Both the position numbers and the translations under genes were made by a program. Below the pieces are notes generated by a model, which saw nothing but the letters and a program-made list of their open reading frames with translations, searched no databases and was not told the DNA's origin. A stretch of 37,350 nt of DNA from Fischerella sp. CENA71 (lineage in GTDB: Bacteria > Cyanobacteriota > Cyanobacteriia > Cyanobacteriales > Nostocaceae), in the NCBI GenBank assembly GCA_024239075.1, contig JANBVI010000070.1, positions 1-37,350 of the forward strand, read 5' to 3'. Shown here piece by piece: positions 29,776 through 37,350 of this stretch (within the stretch, counting starts at the first letter, position 1; every line of letters begins with the position of its first letter).

Positions 29776-29925
29776 CTATGAGCCAGCTATTTATTTTGAA
29801 AGCGAGATTATGGCTCATCAAATCTATTGAATTCACTTTTCACGACCAAATAAATAAAAAAACTATAAAGCTAGCTTTTTTATGCTAATATTTGTCTATT
29901 GTATGCGCGTAATTAAGCAGTACAA

Positions 29926-29998
29926 GGGCGTGTAGCTCAGTGGATAGAGCGTCAGATTCCGGTTCTGTAGGTCGGGGGTTCGAATCCCTCCACGCTCG
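29926..29998 (+). tRNA. tRNA-Arg (anticodon CCG)
   Basis: The 73-nt cloverleaf has acceptor GGGCGTG/CACGCTC, D arm GCTC/GAGC, anticodon loop TTCCGGT (CCG at 29959-29961), variable loop AGGTC, and T arm GGGGG-TTCGAAT-CCCTC. CCA is not encoded. The anticodon stem has a T27-T43 mismatch at its base (29952 and 29968). This gene is the landing site of the CAST that starts 7 bp behind it; the tRNA itself is left intact. Confidence 0.95.
29939..29959 (+). other. CAST homing target: PAM AGTG plus 17-bp protospacer in tRNA-Arg
   Basis: AGTG (29939-29942) fits the NGTN PAM known for Cas12k. The next 17 bases (29943-29959) match the delocalised guide at 30210-30226 except at position 10. From the end of the PAM to the first transposon base is 63 bp, inside the 60-66 bp reported for ShCAST. 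Confidence 0.9.
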
Positions 29999-30000
29999 TT

Positions 30001-30005
30001 TTTAA
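30001..30005. other. putative target-site duplication TTTAA
   Basis: These are the five bases directly before the TGTACA terminus; Tn7-like elements duplicate 5 bp. The partner copy should lie at the other element end, outside the window. Confidence 0.5.
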
Positions 30006-30092
30006 TGTACATTAACAAATTAAATGTCACTGTTAACAGATTAATGTCATTTTTAACAAATTGATGTCACTGTTAACAAATTATGTGTCACC
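30006..30092. repeat. CAST terminus with four TnsB-like binding repeats
   Basis: After TGTACA come four direct repeats of the type TTAACAAATTAATGTCACTG, starting at 30012, 30033, 30053 and 30073 (spacing 21, 20 and 20 bp). The ACA-ATT-TGTC pattern is the one known from ShCAST ends. The four sites abut without gaps. Confidence 0.88.
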
Positions 30093-30209
30093 GTTAGTTA
30101 TACACTGTTATGTCCTATACAAAGATGGCAGTATTCTCTTTTTGGAGATTGATTGATAACTAAATAAATTATTCACTAGTATAGCCAGAGGTCAGTTCCT
30201 CCAAACAAA

Positions 30210-30266
30210 GAATCTGTCGCTCTATCCTTTCAACCCACCGAAAAACCGTCAGCTTGGCATTGAAAT
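30210..30266 (-). ncRNA. delocalised homing crRNA targeting tRNA-Arg
   Basis: On the minus strand an atypical repeat (30227-30266) ends in GGTGGGTTGAAAG, the same 3' handle type as the array, and starts with a TTTCAA arm. Its middle differs completely from the array repeats. It is followed by the spacer GATAGAGCGACAGATTC (30226 down to 30210), which matches the tRNA at 16 of 17 positions. The match ends there, giving a short guide as described for V-K homing. It lies 55 bp beyond the last array repeat and is probably on the same transcript. The handle pairs perfectly over 8 nt with AACCCACC of the tracrRNA. Confidence 0.9.
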
Positions 30267-30321
30267 CGAGAACCAGCGACAAAAGTTAACAAAGCTTTTA
30301 AAGTAATGCGAATAGTGACTA

Positions 30322-30874
30322 CTTTCAACCCGCCTCTAGCTGGGAGGAGTGTTGAAACGGCGTTAGCACTGCTTTGTCAGGAGCTAAATAAAGTTACTTT
30401 CAACCCGCCTCTAGCTGGGAGGAGTGTTGAAACTTAGCTGCCAAAGTCACTCTTTAGGGCAAACTGCCGCTTTCAACCCGCCTCTAGCTGGGAGGAGTGT
30501 TGAAACCTAAATACTTGCGATCGCATATCATCCGTAACTTTCTCACTTTCAACCCGCCTCTAGCTGGGAGGAGTGTTGAAACTGGGGATATCCAACTAAT
30601 GCACATATGTATCAACTTCTTTCAACCCGCCTCTAGCTGGGAGGAGTGTTGAAACTTGAAAAACCCGTTTGCATATTCCCAGGATGAAGCCTTTCAACCC
30701 GCCTCTAGCTGGGAGGAGTGTTGAAACCCTTCATAGCGCGTTGTAACCCTTTGTCTAACTGCCTCTTTCAACCCGCCTCTAGCTGGGAGGAGTGTTGAAA
30801 CTTTTGAGTATTGACACATCTGTTTTAACTGTGTTATCTTTCAACCCGCCTCTAGCTGGGAGGAGTGTTGAAAC
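30322..30874 (-). CRISPR. type V-K CRISPR array, 8 repeats, 7 spacers
   Basis: Eight identical 37-bp repeats start at 30322, 30397, 30470, 30546, 30619, 30691, 30765 and 30838. On the minus (transcribed) strand they read GTTTCAACACTCC... to ...GGCGGGTTGAAAG. The spacers are 38, 36, 39, 36, 35, 37 and 36 bp. All are different, and none obviously matches this window. The orientation follows cas12k and tracrRNA, so the array is read toward the tRNA. There is no adaptation module (cas1/cas2), as is normal for V-K. No repeat is degenerate, even at the distal end. Confidence 0.98.
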
Positions 30875-31069
30875 TCTGCGCCTCAAACCCTTGGCTTGCC
30901 AACAGTTCTGAAAGCATTTTTGGCAAGTCTCCCAAAATCACTCATCAGTCAGCACTCAAAAAAGTAAATTAACTGACACCTGAAAGGCTATAAACTTCAC
31001 CTAATAAGCGATTTAAAGTTTTGGCAGATCCCCAGGGAAATTGACCCCGCTTCGATTCGCCAAAAAATA
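30875..31069 (-). other. tracrRNA-array spacer region
   Basis: About 195 bp without a gene. In V-K systems the tracrRNA runs on into the array, so this is probably transcribed and partly removed by processing. TTGGCAAG-type inverted words near 30896-30926 might form a hairpin. No separate leader promoter was recognised. Confidence 0.4.
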
Positions 31070-31297
31070 ATTAAGGTGGGTTCCTCCTTGGTCGGAGGTG
31101 ATTGGGTAGCCACCACTGCGGTAAACCCGCACCTCTATTACTGGGGGTGCGCCTTATTCCTGTCCTCAAGGGACAGCAGCATCAAGGTGGGCAGCTACCA
31201 GGGTCAGAAAGCAAAACTGTCTTCCAACAGTCAAACTAACCCACATTTTCACAGTACAGAGGCTTGAATAAAACAAGCATGAACTGCGGCACTATTA
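31070..31297 (-). ncRNA. tracrRNA of the V-K system
   Basis: The minus strand closely follows the ShCAST tracrRNA as I remember it: AATAGTGCCGCAGTTCATGC at the 5' end, then GGTTAGTTTGACTGT, GCTTTCTGACCCTGGTAGCT, GATGCTGCTGTC, and a 3' part with GGTGGCTAC and CACCTCCGACCAAGGAGG. The anti-repeat GGAGGAACCCACC (31087-31075) pairs with TCCTCC and GG(C/T)GGGTT of the repeats. It begins about 40 bp behind cas12k. Exact ends are estimates. A 63-codon frame on the plus strand here is not a gene. Confidence 0.88.
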
Positions 31298-31337
31298 CTT
31301 GTCTCTATTCTATTTTCAAGGTTCTGTTTTCTGTCAA

Positions 31338-33254
31338 TCAGGTTTTTTGGCGAGAATTGTAAGCAGCGATCGCTAATTCTTTCGCTTTCTCTTGCGGACT
31401 ACCTCGAATTGGTTGTTTTGACTCCTCTATGACAATTCCAGCTTTAGCAGCTGACGAGCAAATATTTGCAATCAATCTGCCGTAGCTCCATTGATGGACG
31501 CTAACTCGGTACTGTTTGGCATACTTTTGTTGAACTTCTATTAAGTCTGATTTCTGTTCGGCTTTAGCTTGAATCTCACTTTGAACTTGTTCTCGCATAT
31601 CGCCCAACTTAGGGAGGACAATACTGCCAGCTTTATATGTTTGGGCGATCGCCACAATTTCTTTAGCTAGTAATCTGTCTACATACTGCCCTAACTCTGA
31701 TTCTCCCATTTGATTTGGTGCAGCCAATGTTTGAGCTATTTGGCGTTGGTGAGATAAGGTATGTTTTTGTTGTCGCTGTCTATTGAGCAGTCTGTAATTA
31801 TCGCCCAGTAATTGTTTAATGCTGCGGTAGGTAATGACTTCACTTGTAGAGCCATCAACCACTGCTACTGTTATAGGTTTCTCTAAACCAAGGCTGACAC
31901 CAACAAGAATATGAGATTGACCTTGATATAAGGGCTTACTGGGGCGGGGAAAGGGGTTATTAATTCTGCCTAGAGAAGAGTTTTTTCGTTTGATATGAGC
32001 TTGTTGTTTATCGTTGAGTTCACCTTTAGCTTTTGTTTGGGTGATAGCTTTAGCAATTTCTTCTGCTTTCTCTTCTCTGACAAGGTTTGTTCCTTCAGTT
32101 GTCCACAGGCGAGTATCTACAGAACAGTACAAGATTAAGCGGTTAACTTTCCAAGGTTCACCTTTAGCTTCCCCGGATTGCCAAGTAATACGCCCACTTC
32201 GGAGAGTAAATAGACTGCTAGAGTGTTGGTTTTTACTGTTTCGTTTAACTTGCTGATCTTCTAAAAAGCGTTGAAACCAGTGGAGTTGGCGAGAATTGCA
32301 ATAAACTTGAAAAGTATGCTCACTCAAACCATTGAATTTTACACAAATACGTCTACGTTCGTTCTTAAACCAAGTCATGTCTTCGTTGGTTTCATAAGTG
32401 ACTGGGAAAGGTAGTTTACTAGATTTTTTTAAAAGGCTGTCTTGCCAAGATTTCGCTTCTATTTCACTTTCAGGAACATTATCAGTGGCAAGCAAAAGAG
32501 TTTCCAGCCACTTGGCATCGGTTAAATCTCGACCTTTAGGGATTCGTGCCTCTAGTTGTTCTCTAAGGCGTTCAATTTGAATCTCAAGTTTACGGCGACG
32601 TTTAGCAAATTTCTCAGTATCTTCTTCTTCTTTGTCTTTGATTTCGCAGCCGTTTTTGAGCAAATAACTAATCGCACAACGAGTCACGATGTCTTCTGTG
32701 TCGCAGTAATTTTCAAACAAGGTTTTGGAGATAGTGCGATCACTATCTGAGGCTTTTGATTTTTTAGTTTTTTTACGTTTGTTTCCTTTTGTTGGTTGTG
32801 GTTCAACTGTATCGGACTTGGGGGTAAGTTAAGCTAGTATTTCAGTGGCTCTACTACGAAGCCTCTCTAAATTCACACCACTGTTTTCTACTAATTCAGG
32901 ATCGCTTTTAAGCATTCCCCACCAGCAAATTTTGCCTTCTAGTTGGGACTGCGATCGCTTCATTAGAGCTAGCCAGGATTTGTAAATGTAATTGACTGTC
33001 GCGATCGCACTCGTATAAAACCGTGCTGGTTGACCGATGAAACGAGGGTCAGTTTTCAAAGGTTGGCACAATTCTTTGACAATACTAGAGGGGTGTTTAC
33101 CCTTTTGTCGCCAAGTCTCAAACTCTGGATGTTCAGCCACTTTAGATAGCAATTCGTTTATCAGCGGTGTGTTTTTCTCTGCCATCAGCTTCCATAGCTG
33201 TTGGCGAGTATTAACGCTGGCGACAAGACGACATTGAATCGTGATTTGGCTCAT
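31338..33254 (-). pseudogene. cas12k: Cas12k effector, interrupted by one in-frame stop
   Basis: Cas12k is the nuclease-dead, tracrRNA-dependent effector that guides V-K transposition. Reading from ATG 33254 (MSQITIQCRLVAS) to 31338 gives 638 codons, matching the normal length of about 637-639. Codon 142 (32831-32829) is TAA where ShCas12k has Gln in AEILAQ. Frame and similarity continue unbroken after it (LTPKSDTVEPQPTKGN, a Lys-rich linker, then TLFENYCDTEDIVTRCAISYLLKNG). The RuvC part is present (ILVGVSLGLEKPITVAVVD, KAGSIVLPKLGDMRE, IRGSPQEKAKELAIAAYN) and, as in the family, lacks catalytic acidic residues. A TTG at 32720 is the first possible restart. A TTG at 33269 in front of ATG 33254 is less likely because it overlaps the -10 box. 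Confidence 0.93.
32829..32831 (-). other. premature TAA at Cas12k codon 142
   Basis: The sequence reads GAA ATA CTA GCT TAA CTT ACC. One C-to-T change from CAA would explain it. It lies at the border between the N-terminal 141 residues and a basic low-complexity linker of about 36 codons. Confidence 0.93.
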
Positions 33255-33268
33255 GAAGCTTTTAAACA

Positions 33269-33297
33269 ATTATGTTTAATAATAACACATTTGTCTA
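33269..33297 (-). promoter_or_regulatory. cas12k promoter
   Basis: On the minus strand TAGACA (33297-33292), a 17-nt spacer and CATAAT (33274-33269) fit a sigma-70 promoter. Transcription would start only about 8 nt before ATG 33254. An imperfect dyad TTAGACA-AA-TGTGTTA lies over the -35 box and could be the CvkR operator. Confidence 0.6.
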
Positions 33298-33318
33298 ATA
33301 AAAAGTCATGAATAAAAT
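33291..33318 (+). promoter_or_regulatory. cvkR promoter overlapping the cas12k -35 box
   Basis: TTGTCT (33291-33296), a 16-nt spacer and TAAAAT (33313-33318) point to a start at or near the ATG 33325, so the mRNA may be leaderless. The two divergent -35 boxes share the same bases, so one bound repressor could control both. Confidence 0.5.
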
Positions 33319-33324
33319 AGTTTC

Positions 33325-33756
33325 ATGCAGGAAACATTTTTTACGAGCAAACAAGCTGCTGTCATGACAGGGTGTACTCTTCGCCAGCTCCAGTACTGGC
33401 GTGAGAAGGGTGTAGTTGTTCCCGTTATCAGTGAGACGGGAACAGGGCGTAGTATTTATTACTCAAAAGCCAATATAGTTGAACTGGCAGCAATGGCATA
33501 TTTGCTGTCTACGGGGTTAAGTTTTGAACTAGCTAGTGAAACCCTCAAAAAGCTGAAAGACCAAGAGCCGGATTTGTTTAATTCAGGTAAGGGAAGGCGT
33601 TTTATGTTGCTATGGGATGGGGAAAAACGAACGCTTTTACTTATGGAGTTTGACCGAGAAAAGGCGATCGCATCTCTTGATGAAGGTAAACCTGTGATTC
33701 CTGTATGGTTGGACGAAATTTATCAACGGTTAGCGCTGAAGTTGGGAAGTAGTTAA
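33325..33756 (+). CDS. cvkR: MerR-type repressor of the V-K CAST (CvkR)
   Basis: The 143-residue protein starts with a winged-helix MerR domain (FFTSKQAAVMTGCTLRQLQYWREKGVVVP, then GRSIYYSKANIVELAAMAYLLSTGLSFELASETLKKL). A short C-terminal part follows (FMLLWDGEKRTLLLMEFDREKA...VIPVWLDEIYQRL) with no metal-binding cysteine motif. Its position, divergent from cas12k with a 70-bp gap, is that of CvkR, shown in Anabaena to repress cas12k. It probably binds the shared promoter region. The type I restriction genes follow in the same direction after 45 bp. Confidence 0.9.
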   Translation: MQETFFTSKQAAVMTGCTLRQLQYWREKGVVVPVISETGTGRSIYYSKANIVELAAMAYLLSTGLSFELASETLKKLKDQEPDLFNSGKGRRFMLLWDGEKRTLLLMEFDREKAIASLDEGKPVIPVWLDEIYQRLALKLGSS

Positions 33757-33801
33757 ATTTTTCGGGCTTAGTGCTAAGTTTGGTAAGACAGGAGTGATTT
33801 G

Positions 33802-36027
33802 ATGAGCGACTTTAGCAAAGAGACAGACGCACGTATTAATATTGATGACCTTCTCCGCCAAGCAGGATGGAACCCGGCTGATAAATCTCAGGTAATGACT
33901 GAGGTTTCGGCTCCAATGGCAGATGGTAGGAGAGGTAGAGCCGATTATGTACTGCTTGACCAAAGAGGTCGTCCCTTGGCTGTGATTGAAGCTAAGAAGC
34001 GTGCGATTGAGCCTTATGTTGCTAAGAACCAAGCACTTCCCTATGCTCAGAAGTTGGAAGCACCGTTTATTTTCCTCAGTAATGGCGAACTGATTTATTT
34101 CTGGGACTATCAAAACGATGATGCCCGGATTGTTAATTCGTTTTTCTCACGGCGAGATTTAGAGCGACTGGTTGAAATGCGCTCGACTCGTCAACCTCTA
34201 GCTACTATTGAAATTCCTGAGTATTACACTCGACAAGGAGAAATTCGCTCAGTTCGTCCCTATCAAAGGGAAACTATGCAAGCAATTGACCATGCGGTTG
34301 AATTGGGAAAGCGGCGATTTTTACTGGAACTACCTACCGGAACAGGTAAAACTGATTTAATTTGCTTGCAATTAAAACGCTTGATTCAATCGGGATATGC
34401 AGAAAAAATCCTGTTTTTAGTGGATAGGGAACAGTTAGCTAAACAGGCATTAGAAGCAATTCAAGATGTTTTAAACCAGTATGGTAGCTACTGGCTCAAG
34501 CCGAGTGTAATCCGCCAAGAGCAGCAAATTACAGTTTGCTTACTTCAAACAATGATTAGCCGTTATCGGGAGTTTACTAGCGGTTATTTTGATGTTGTTG
34601 TGGCTGATGAATGTCACCGTTCGATTTATGGTGTTTGGCAGACGGCACTTACTCACTTTGATGCGTTCCATATTGGTTTAACTGCTACGCCAGCAGCTTA
34701 CATTGAACGGAATACTTTTGATTTTTACAACTGCCGGAACGAGCAGCCAGATTTTACCTACTCTATTCAGACGGCATTTGAACAAAAGTATCTTGTTCCC
34801 TATCGGTTCGCTACTGGCATCACTGAAATTATTGCTGAAGGTGCTGAAGTTGATGAGGTTTATTATGACCCAGCAGCCTTTGAACGCAAGTGGACTAATG
34901 AGGCAAGTAACCGCCTCATGATGCAGGAATTTGATAGACTGGCTTGGGAAAATTATCAAGAATTAGCACCAGGGCAAAAGATTGGGCCTGGTAAGTCAAT
35001 AGTATTTGCTTTGACAAAAAATCATGCGGCACGGTTAACCAGATATCTTAACGAGTTACATCCAGAATGCAAGGGGCGTTACGCTGAAGTAATTACAAGT
35101 GATGTTGCTAATGCCGATGATTTAATTCGCCAGTTCAAATATGAGGATTACCCTCAAGTTGCAGTCAGCGTTGATATGCTCAATACTGGCTTTGATTGCC
35201 GGGAAGTTCTGCATTTAGTTATGTGTCGCACAGTGCGGAGTCCAATTCTTTATCAGCAGATTCGTGGACGGGGGACAAGGACTGCGCCACATATTGATAA
35301 ACGCAAGTTTGTTATTTATGATTTCTTCGGAAATCACCAATATTTTAATGACAGCGATACTGATATTTATGCTGAAACTGGTCGAGGTCATGTATCAATT
35401 AGAAGTAACCAGCAACAATCCCGTCCTCGCTCAGAATTAATTGAATTAGGGCTGAGGGATAGATGGCAGCAATATGTGAGTTATGTAGAAGTAGGGACAG
35501 AAGGGGAGCGCGTTGATAAGCGTGATTATGTCACTAATTGGGAGCAAACTATTCAATCTGCTGTCAGCAATGATCCAATACTCCAGAAAATCCGGGATGG
35601 AGAATTGTTGACGGAAACTGAAGAAACGGAACTCGTGCAGCGTTTGAATACGCCCCGATATTACTTTAATGAAGAAAACTTGCGGCGAGCTTACCGAAAT
35701 TATAATGGTAGCTTGATTGATTTTATTCGGGCTGCATTGGGAACATTAAAGATTAAAAGTCACGAAGAATTACTAGAAGAAAATTTTAGAGCTTGGTTGG
35801 TTTCTCACTCTTTCGCACCAGCCCAAGCTCAGTATCTTTCTTTGTTGAAAAATCGGGGTATTGCCAAAGGTCAGCTAACCATAGATGATTTATTCTTGCC
35901 ACCCCTTTCAGTTCTCAATGCTGCTGGTTTAGGTATAGAACTGTTTGGTGAGCAGGGATTGCGGGATATTTTTGATGAATTAAACCGCTCTGTGTTTACG
36001 GTGGATGCTACAGGTACAGAGGGTTAA
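33802..36027 (+). CDS. hsdR: type I restriction enzyme, R subunit
   Basis: HsdR is the translocase/nuclease of a type I restriction system. The 741 residues from ATG 33802 (AGGAG ribosome site) hold an N-terminal PD-(D/E)xK-like nuclease (RGRADYVLLDQ...LAVIEAKK, about 46-66), Walker A PTGTGKT (about 178-184), the DEAD-like box VADECHRS (about 266-273), LTATP (about 293-297), the second RecA fold with QIRGRGTRTAP, and an EcoEI-type C-terminal region. An in-frame TTG just before the ATG is ignored. hsdM follows by 9 bp. It is cargo of the CAST and seems intact. Confidence 0.93.
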   Translation: MSDFSKETDARINIDDLLRQAGWNPADKSQVMTEVSAPMADGRRGRADYVLLDQRGRPLAVIEAKKRAIEPYVAKNQALPYAQKLEAPFIFLSNGELIYFWDYQNDDARIVNSFFSRRDLERLVEMRSTRQPLATIEIPEYYTRQGEIRSVRPYQRETMQAIDHAVELGKRRFLLELPTGTGKTDLICLQLKRLIQSGYAEKILFLVDREQLAKQALEAIQDVLNQYGSYWLKPSVIRQEQQITVCLLQTMISRYREFTSGYFDVVVADECHRSIYGVWQTALTHFDAFHIGLTATPAAYIERNTFDFYNCRNEQPDFTYSIQTAFEQKYLVPYRFATGITEIIAEGAEVDEVYYDPAAFERKWTNEASNRLMMQEFDRLAWENYQELAPGQKIGPGKSIVFALTKNHAARLTRYLNELHPECKGRYAEVITSDVANADDLIRQFKYEDYPQVAVSVDMLNTGFDCREVLHLVMCRTVRSPILYQQIRGRGTRTAPHIDKRKFVIYDFFGNHQYFNDSDTDIYAETGRGHVSIRSNQQQSRPRSELIELGLRDRWQQYVSYVEVGTEGERVDKRDYVTNWEQTIQSAVSNDPILQKIRDGELLTETEETELVQRLNTPRYYFNEENLRRAYRNYNGSLIDFIRAALGTLKIKSHEELLEENFRAWLVSHSFAPAQAQYLSLLKNRGIAKGQLTIDDLFLPPLSVLNAAGLGIELFGEQGLRDIFDELNRSVFTVDATGTEG

Positions 36028-36036
36028 GAGAAAAAT

Positions 36037-37233
36037 ATGGATTCAGAAATTCGTCGCAAACTCAAGCATATTACTGATACCTTGTGGGCTGGTGGGGTAA
36101 CAAATCCTGTCACCTATATTGAGCAGATTTCTTACCTGATATACCTGAAGCTGTTGGATGAAGAGGAAGCAAATCGGGAGTTACGCGCCCGTCTTACTGG
36201 TAATAATGGTAATGCTAAATTACTATTTCCCCAGCAAGCGGAACGTTATCGCTGGTCAAAATGGCGTTTCAAGAGTGGTACTGAACTGCGGGACTTTTTG
36301 CGGGATGAAGTTTTCCCCTACATGGCGAATTCTTTGCTGAAAGATGAGCCAAAAGTGGCAGAGTATTTCCGGGATGCGGTTTTAGAAATTAATGACCCGA
36401 ATGTTCTCAAGTTGGTAGTTGATGAACTCGATACCTTGGATTTCCTCAAAATGGGTCAGGATGTCAAAGGTGATATTTTTGAGTACCTGTTAACCCATTT
36501 AGGTCAATCTGCGCTTAATGGTCAATTCCGTACTCCCCGACAGATACGGGCGTTTATGGTGGAGATGGTTGACCCTGATTTAGGGGATACTATCTGTGAT
36601 TTGGCTTGTGGAACAGCAGGATTTTTAATTGATAGTATTGAGTATATTTTGGCTAAGTACAGCGAAAATCCCATAGAAGTACCGATTTATGGTGAAGACT
36701 GGCTGGAAAAACGGGGACTGACTTTGGCTGAAGCAAAACAGCAAATCTCAAATCTCCAGACTTATCGCAAGGGAAATGGGGATAGATTACCTGACTGGAA
36801 ACTGTTGGAAGAGTCGATTTATGGCTTTGATGTTTCCCGCCAGATGATGCGAATTTCGATGATGAACTTGGTGCTGCATGGAATTCGCAACGCCAAGCTG
36901 AAAGTAGCAAATGTCTTGTCAGATATGGGGGGACTGACAGAAGATGATTTGCGCCGTCGCTATAAGGTAATGTTTGATAATCCGCCTTTTGCGGGAACGT
37001 TACCCAAAGATTCTATCCGTGCAGATTTACCAACAAATTCCAAAAAAAGTGAATTGCTGTTTTTGGCTGCAATCATGAAGTCTTTGGTAGCAGGTGGAAA
37101 GTGTGCGGTAGTTGTACCAGAAGGGTTACTGTTTGGTTCCACTGGCGCTCATGTAGATTTGCGTAAAAAACTGGTGACAGAATTTGATTTATTGGCAGTG
37201 GTTTCTTTACCTGCGGGTGTGTTTAAGCCATAA
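36037..37233 (+). pseudogene. hsdM: type I restriction M subunit, cut off in the FKPY motif
   Basis: HsdM methylates adenine at the recognition site and is needed for both methylation and cleavage. Present are the HsdM N-terminal helical domain, the SAM motif DLACGTAGFL (about 188-197) and the catalytic FDNPPF (about 312-317). The frame ends after 398 codons with VSLPAGVFKP then TAA, whereas family members continue FKPY(A/S)GV... for roughly another 80-120 residues. Behind the stop the sequence no longer resembles hsdM but reads as an IS630-like transposase end on the other strand. The break lies exactly at a TA, the IS630 target. No hsdS is seen before the window ends. Confidence 0.8.
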
Positions 37234-37237
37234 GTAG

Positions 37238-37350
37238 TTACTCAAAATTAATTACATAGTTTTGTCCAAATTCTCTGAGTATTTTTTCCAGAGATTCAAC
37301 AAACGTTTGCCAGCTAGAATAAGCATCGAGCTCAATCCATTGATATTTAA
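37238..37350 (-). CDS. IS630-family-like transposase, C-terminal part only
   Basis: The minus strand from the window edge reads KYQWIELDAYSSWQTFVE, SLEKILREFGQNYVINFE, stop (37 residues). This resembles the C-terminus of cyanobacterial IS630 transposases, which end in K-Y-x-W...A-Y-x-S...ILxxxGxxYxIxFA. The stop is only about 5 bp from the presumed IS end at 37233, which is very short but seen in compact IS. The rest is outside the window, so the family call is tentative. Confidence 0.55.
   Translation of the reverse strand, partial: KYQWIELDAYSSWQTFVESLEKILREFGQNYVINFE

Follow-up and report, generated by a model that had tools for sequence, protein, structure and literature searches.

Was the element that lies beside the tRNA-Arg(CCG) gene of Fischerella sp. 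CENA71 placed there by a guide that it carries itself? The window, by which we mean the whole 37,350-nucleotide stretch of DNA analyzed, comprises positions 1 to 37350 of contig C70 in a genome of 7.47 Mb and 95 contigs. The tRNA gene (29926 to 29998, plus strand), which serves as the attachment gene, is intact; it was identified by ARAGORN and as Rfam RF00005, the sole Rfam family to reach the gathering score in the window. It is followed by TTTTTAA (29999 to 30005, plus strand), the left copy of a target-site repeat, and then by the left end of the element, which starts with TGTACA at 30006 to 30011 and contains TTAACAAATTA..TGTC subterminal repeats (30006 to 30110, plus strand; the inner limit is approximate). 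Further inward, the minus strand carries a 17-nt anchor (homing) spacer, GATAGAGCGACAGATTC (30210 to 30226), recognized by comparison with its target and with other loci; directly before it a truncated repeat, R* (GGTGGGTTGAAAG, 30227 to 30239), also recognized by comparison with other loci; a CRISPR array with a count of 8 repeats (30322 to 30874); a probable tracrRNA region (31060 to 31300, limits inferred); and cas12k (31338 to 33254). No tracrRNA reached the Rfam gathering score in the window, and the region was recognized by its anti-repeat, AACCCACC (31082 to 31075), a motif that, like its position after cas12k, is common to other loci. Cas12k matched NCBIfam model NF038191 with 981.9 bits over positions 1 to 629, the full model length, with one in-frame TAA inside (32829 to 32831).

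Divergent from cas12k is a gene for a MerR-type regulator (33325 to 33756, plus strand; Pfam MerR_1), in the position that passages of PMC9938897 describe for cvkR. The cargo on the plus strand consists of genes for the type I restriction subunit HsdR (33799 to 36027; profile match) and the N-terminal part of HsdM (36037 to 37233; profile positions 3 to 364 of 491). The window stops within the cargo, and we took its end to be that of the contig. The last 120 bases (37231 to 37350) are identical to a stretch on the reverse strand of contig C64 (L012:15753-15872) and probably represent a repeat that was inserted into the cargo or is shared by it, at the point where hsdM splits. Because these bases are present in C64 too, repeated sequence probably caused the contig break.

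The anchor spacer matched the tRNA gene at a protospacer, GATAGAGCGTCAGATTC (29943 to 29959, plus strand), that was identical to it at 16 of 17 positions, the sole mismatch being at position 10. The protospacer is preceded by the PAM AGTG (29939 to 29942, plus strand; NGTN), and the left terminus begins 63 bases after that PAM. The distance from PAM to left end in V-K transposition is about 60 to 66 bp. A spacing of 63 bp was part of the original prediction, and the coordinates check out. As a control for chance, we compared the tRNA with all 74,484 17-mers of the window, from both strands, minus those overlapping the tRNA. Four had no more than one mismatch, and all were the guide, its one-base shift, or their complements; the best 17-mer away from the guide, on either strand of the window, had three mismatches. 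Two other tRNA-Arg genes, found by similarity, were rejected as the true target, with three mismatches for TCT and more than four for ACG.

The right end of the element was located on a second contig. We scanned the whole genome for the terminus, both exactly and with up to one mismatch, using the reversed pattern as a control. Allowing one mismatch gave 12 matches versus 6 in the control, so only exact matches were used; these fell at four places, on C70, C63, C64, and C88. The end at C63:128123 has the same TGTACATTAAC terminus form as the left end. Inward of it are uninterrupted open reading frames for TnsB, TnsC, and TniQ (570, 278, and 175 aa; L010), with rve/Mu-transpos_C, TniB, and TniQ domains, respectively, and the end of C63 carries the C-terminal part of HsdM (profile positions 369 to 487 of 491). 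Because the HsdM parts on C70 (3 to 364) and C63 (369 to 487) belong to one model, they tie the contigs together, and most simply C70 and C63 each hold half of a single element, whose hsdM is divided by the gap. It counts against this reconstruction that the halves are on different contigs with a gap between them and that no assembled stretch spans the whole. Adjoining tniQ (L010:5721-6825) are SocA/Panacea-like and PemK-like genes, likely a toxin-antitoxin cargo pair. Contig C38 was considered as the right end and rejected; it has tnsB, tnsC, and tniQ homologues, but no V-K-type terminus was found there, and C63 was preferred because its flank and the HsdM remainder fit. The genes on C38 (L009:1820-4808) are a third tnsB-tnsC-tniQ set, on a contig with no Cas12k match, and by eye a CRISPR array with another repeat sequence lies nearby.

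The sequence outside the left end is CGTTTTTAA and that outside the right end is TTTTTAATTTTTTGGTG, with the right copy of TTTTTAA adjoining the right end on C63. TTTAA, which was expected at the second element end once that end was found, is thus present there, inside the longer shared TTTTTAA. The usual V-K target-site duplication is 5 bp, the length seen at the second V-K element of this genome, so a shared repeat of 7 bp counts against the reading; slippage in the T run would explain the extra length, but this is our guess.

An empty tRNA-Arg(CCG) site in related genomes had also been proposed as a check, and it was found, exact in one genome and diverged in another, with three others differing. 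In G004, of the same genus, the uninterrupted junction CGCTCGTTTTTAATTTTTTGGTG was exact over 23 bases, with CGTTTTTAATTTTTTGGTG after the tRNA and no insert. It counts against this comparison that G004 realigns with the right flank only from flank base 188 (92% over 580 bases). In G003, also of the same genus, the C63 flank came directly after the tRNA from its first base, with 90% identity over 767 columns and a diverged junction. The sequence after the tRNA was different in G001 and G002 (same genus) and in G011 (same family). When the element halves were compared with stretches of about 5 kb around the tRNA in five relatives, there was no match except one of 23 bp. After tRNA-Arg(CCG) in G002 (L052) we saw, by eye, a short stretch with CAAATTAGTTGTC before TAATTTTTTGGTGCATA, the latter common to G004; an earlier V-K element may have left this stretch as a scar.

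A short, separate crRNA reportedly guides V-K insertion beside a tRNA gene. For such delocalised-crRNA homing of a V-K CAST, passages of PMC8649781 cite Saito et al. 2021, and the window's element resembles that system in having a short separate crRNA, predicted here from the sequence, beside a tRNA gene. Ziemann et al. 2023 (PMC9938897, in the passages on architecture) derived the layout from 118 systems and gave an anchor spacer usually of 17 nt, an R* of about 12 nt, a GTN PAM, and 46 to 82 nt between PAM and left end, with one exception among 147. In common with their V-K CASTs, the present element has a tRNA that points at the left end, R*, and an anchor spacer, then array, probable tracrRNA, cas12k, divergent regulator, and tnsB-tnsC-tniQ adjoining the right end; unlike that layout, its cas12k is interrupted. 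Passages of an Annual Review article (PMC11406308) state that V-K elements attach mostly at tRNA genes of diverse kinds and that even close relatives can differ in their sites.

The right end, the shared flanks, and the empty site indicate that a V-K CAST was inserted where its own guide would direct it. We are thus confident, from the sequence evidence, that the window very probably holds the left half of a type V-K CAST inserted downstream of tRNA-Arg(CCG) under the guidance of its own anchor crRNA. Guide-target match, PAM, spacing, ends, shared repeat, empty site, and a gene set spread over two contigs are all present, and we infer both transcription of the anchor unit and its actual use as the guide for this insertion. 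If so, a short crRNA made up of R* and the 17-nt anchor spacer would, together with tracrRNA and Cas12k, bind the tRNA gene beside AGTG, and TnsC, TniQ, and TnsB would insert the element 63 bp further on with the left end nearest the target. Such an insertion would spare the tRNA and duplicate a few T/A-rich bases. It is explained by known homing, and neither its kind nor its site is new. As a natural case the locus is clean: guide, PAM, protospacer, the two ends, and an empty site are all legible, and another V-K element of the genome serves as an internal control.

Two other accounts of the locus have to be weighed. The 17-mer match, which is short and imperfect, could be due to chance or to a tRNA fragment carried by the element without guide function. 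However, no 17-mer of the window away from the guide is within two mismatches of the tRNA, the matching 17-mer stands directly after a truncated repeat, as in 34 of 52 Cas12k loci, and 26 of the 34 resolved targets are in a tRNA gene; we regard this account as extremely improbable. Alternatively, the element could have reached the site by another route, either untargeted transposition or recombination between V-K copies, its guide match being a legacy of an ancestor that had homed to this tRNA. The interrupted Cas12k of the window's copy, the target repeat 2 bp longer than expected, and the position of the second V-K element's ends on two contigs, though C64 runs far past it, would all fit such a history. 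That the insertion lies at the guide-predicted distance, with flanks that match at both ends and an empty junction in G004, argues against it, and we consider it very unlikely. Guided insertion by the element's own anchor crRNA remains our preferred explanation, although the central mismatch in the guide counts against it.

The original prediction spoke of a complete self-homing circuit. Its claim of agreement among guide, PAM, protospacer, and insertion point was borne out by the two ends of the element, the target-site repeat beside them, and the unoccupied site in a relative, but "complete" overstated the present state of the element because of the TAA at 32829 to 32831. This copy looks damaged, with an in-frame stop in cas12k and hsdM split at the contig break. 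With cas12k interrupted, it probably cannot home unaided; the in-frame TAA is relevant to what the element can do now, not to its descent. The intact Cas12k of the genome's other V-K element might rescue it. That element, element B, is at tRNA-Val(GAC) and has an uninterrupted cas12k, a guide matching at 17 of 17 positions, the PAM GGTT, a spacing of 62 bp, and a 5-bp target repeat, GGTTC, at C64 and C88. Its left end is at C64:174488 (L012:6489), and the matching right end is at C88:279196 (L011:3197). Contig C64 (624 kb) continues for about 450 kb beyond the left end of element B, which reflects either a rearrangement or an assembly join. A search of plasmid records for a carrier of the window's element found none: 16 records matched, none of the 12 listed had more than 80% coverage, and the best covered 21% of positions 29900 to 33800.

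How common is this attachment site among V-K elements? A Cas12k scan of the genome contig collection gave 52 loci. We called an anchor guide resolved if a target lay within 1.2 kb with no more than three mismatches and GT in the PAM. This was the case in 34 loci (no mismatch in 26, one in 6, and two in 2); the other 18, some cut by a contig end and some with a partial cas12k, yielded no such guide. The resolved targets were tRNA-Arg(CCG) in 7 loci, tRNA-Val(GAC) in 6, and tRNA-Leu, -Cys, and -Lys in 5, 3, and 2, with Ser, Ala, and Thr once each and 8 targets with no tRNA called. TGTACA occurred within 150 bases in 23 of the 34, at 57 to 66 bases from the PAM in 20 and at 23, 28, and 86 in the others.

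The suggestion that use of tRNA-Arg(CCG) might be new did not hold, because other CASTs with a guide to it exist: 7 of the 34 resolved loci, together with G007, G331, and G215, carry an anchor guide that targets these same 17 bases of the tRNA, with PAM AGTG. The guide GATAGAGCAACAGATTC, matching its own tRNA at 17 of 17 positions, is found in Tolypothrix sp. FACHB-123 (L085), Nostoc foliaceum FACHB-393 (L092), Nostoc sp. FACHB-973 (L093), a Nostoc indistinguendum MAG (L097), Nostoc sp. WHI (L115), Nostoc sp. FACHB-110 (L120), G007, and G331. The variant guide of a Pleurocapsa MAG (L113) and the guide of G215 have two mismatches; by eye, the first 900 bases of G215 showed neither a left end nor an array. 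Unlike that of the window's element, the left ends of L093, L097, L115, and L120 do not start with TGTACA. An order-wide pattern search found such a guide, at no more than two mismatches, in 5 of 388 genomes, the window's included (one of the genomes, G301, seems to represent the L113 contig again, the two contigs being equally long). A Cas12k tree was built from 32 of the 35 rows prepared (3 were dropped, including L097, and L116 and L120 were not entered because they are partial). In it, the window's element fell in a supported group of six (100/99), four of which use tRNA-Arg(CCG); L092, L115, and L113 fell in other groups. Thus, tRNA-Arg(CCG) is an attachment site common to V-K elements with different end sequences. 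The site is not mentioned in section 6 and further passages of PMC9938897, and a literature search, the scope of which did not extend to the original homing papers, returned one unrelated paper, on fish transposons, and nothing on this site.

The mismatch in the window's guide may bear on the history of its host. At positions 9 and 10 this guide reads GA, and the guides of related elements read AA. A fixed tRNA-Arg(CCG) pattern matched in 155 of 218 genomes of the family (the 63 others were unmatched and not read), and among the 150 matches listed, counted by eye, these two positions were AA in 138, GT in 9, GG in 3, and GA in none. The GT tRNAs among the matches listed belong to all five host-genus genomes searched and to four others. 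An AA guide has two mismatches to the host tRNA, and one after a single change. The simplest path to the GA guide would be one substitution in an AA guide that brought position 9 into line with the host. Being one step from both AA and GT, it may record an earlier host. By simple arithmetic, of the 51 single changes that are possible, only 2 lessen the mismatch, and the direction taken therefore hints at selection for homing in the new host rather than drift. Drift in a decaying element offers an account that is just simple as well, one favored by the interrupted cas12k and the split hsdM. We offer tentatively, as less likely than not, the reading that the anchor guide has been following a change of host. 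If it is true, V-K homing guides keep a readable record of past hosts. With a guide that is one step off, adaptation of homing guides to the host tRNA becomes a testable question.

Finally, we compared the pairing of R* and of the array repeats with the tracrRNA in 37 elements (loci L072 to L120), of which 31 were counted; 4 in which no anti-repeat was found, 1 with no clear array repeat, and 1 with no tracrRNA anti-repeat were left out. At one base of the tracrRNA-paired GGXGGGTT (30227 to 30239 and 31075 to 31082 in the window), pairing is confined to R* in 23 of the 31 and to the array repeats in 4, while it is absent from both in 3 and present in both in 1. For the tracr-T class, the two-sided Fisher test gave p = 0.07 with kinship ignored, and because of this value and the lack of a correction for kinship, we report the pattern only as noticed. 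A preprint on V-K guides is said to discuss mismatched tracrRNA pairing. In the elements compared here, a single base may distinguish the homing crRNA from the array crRNAs.
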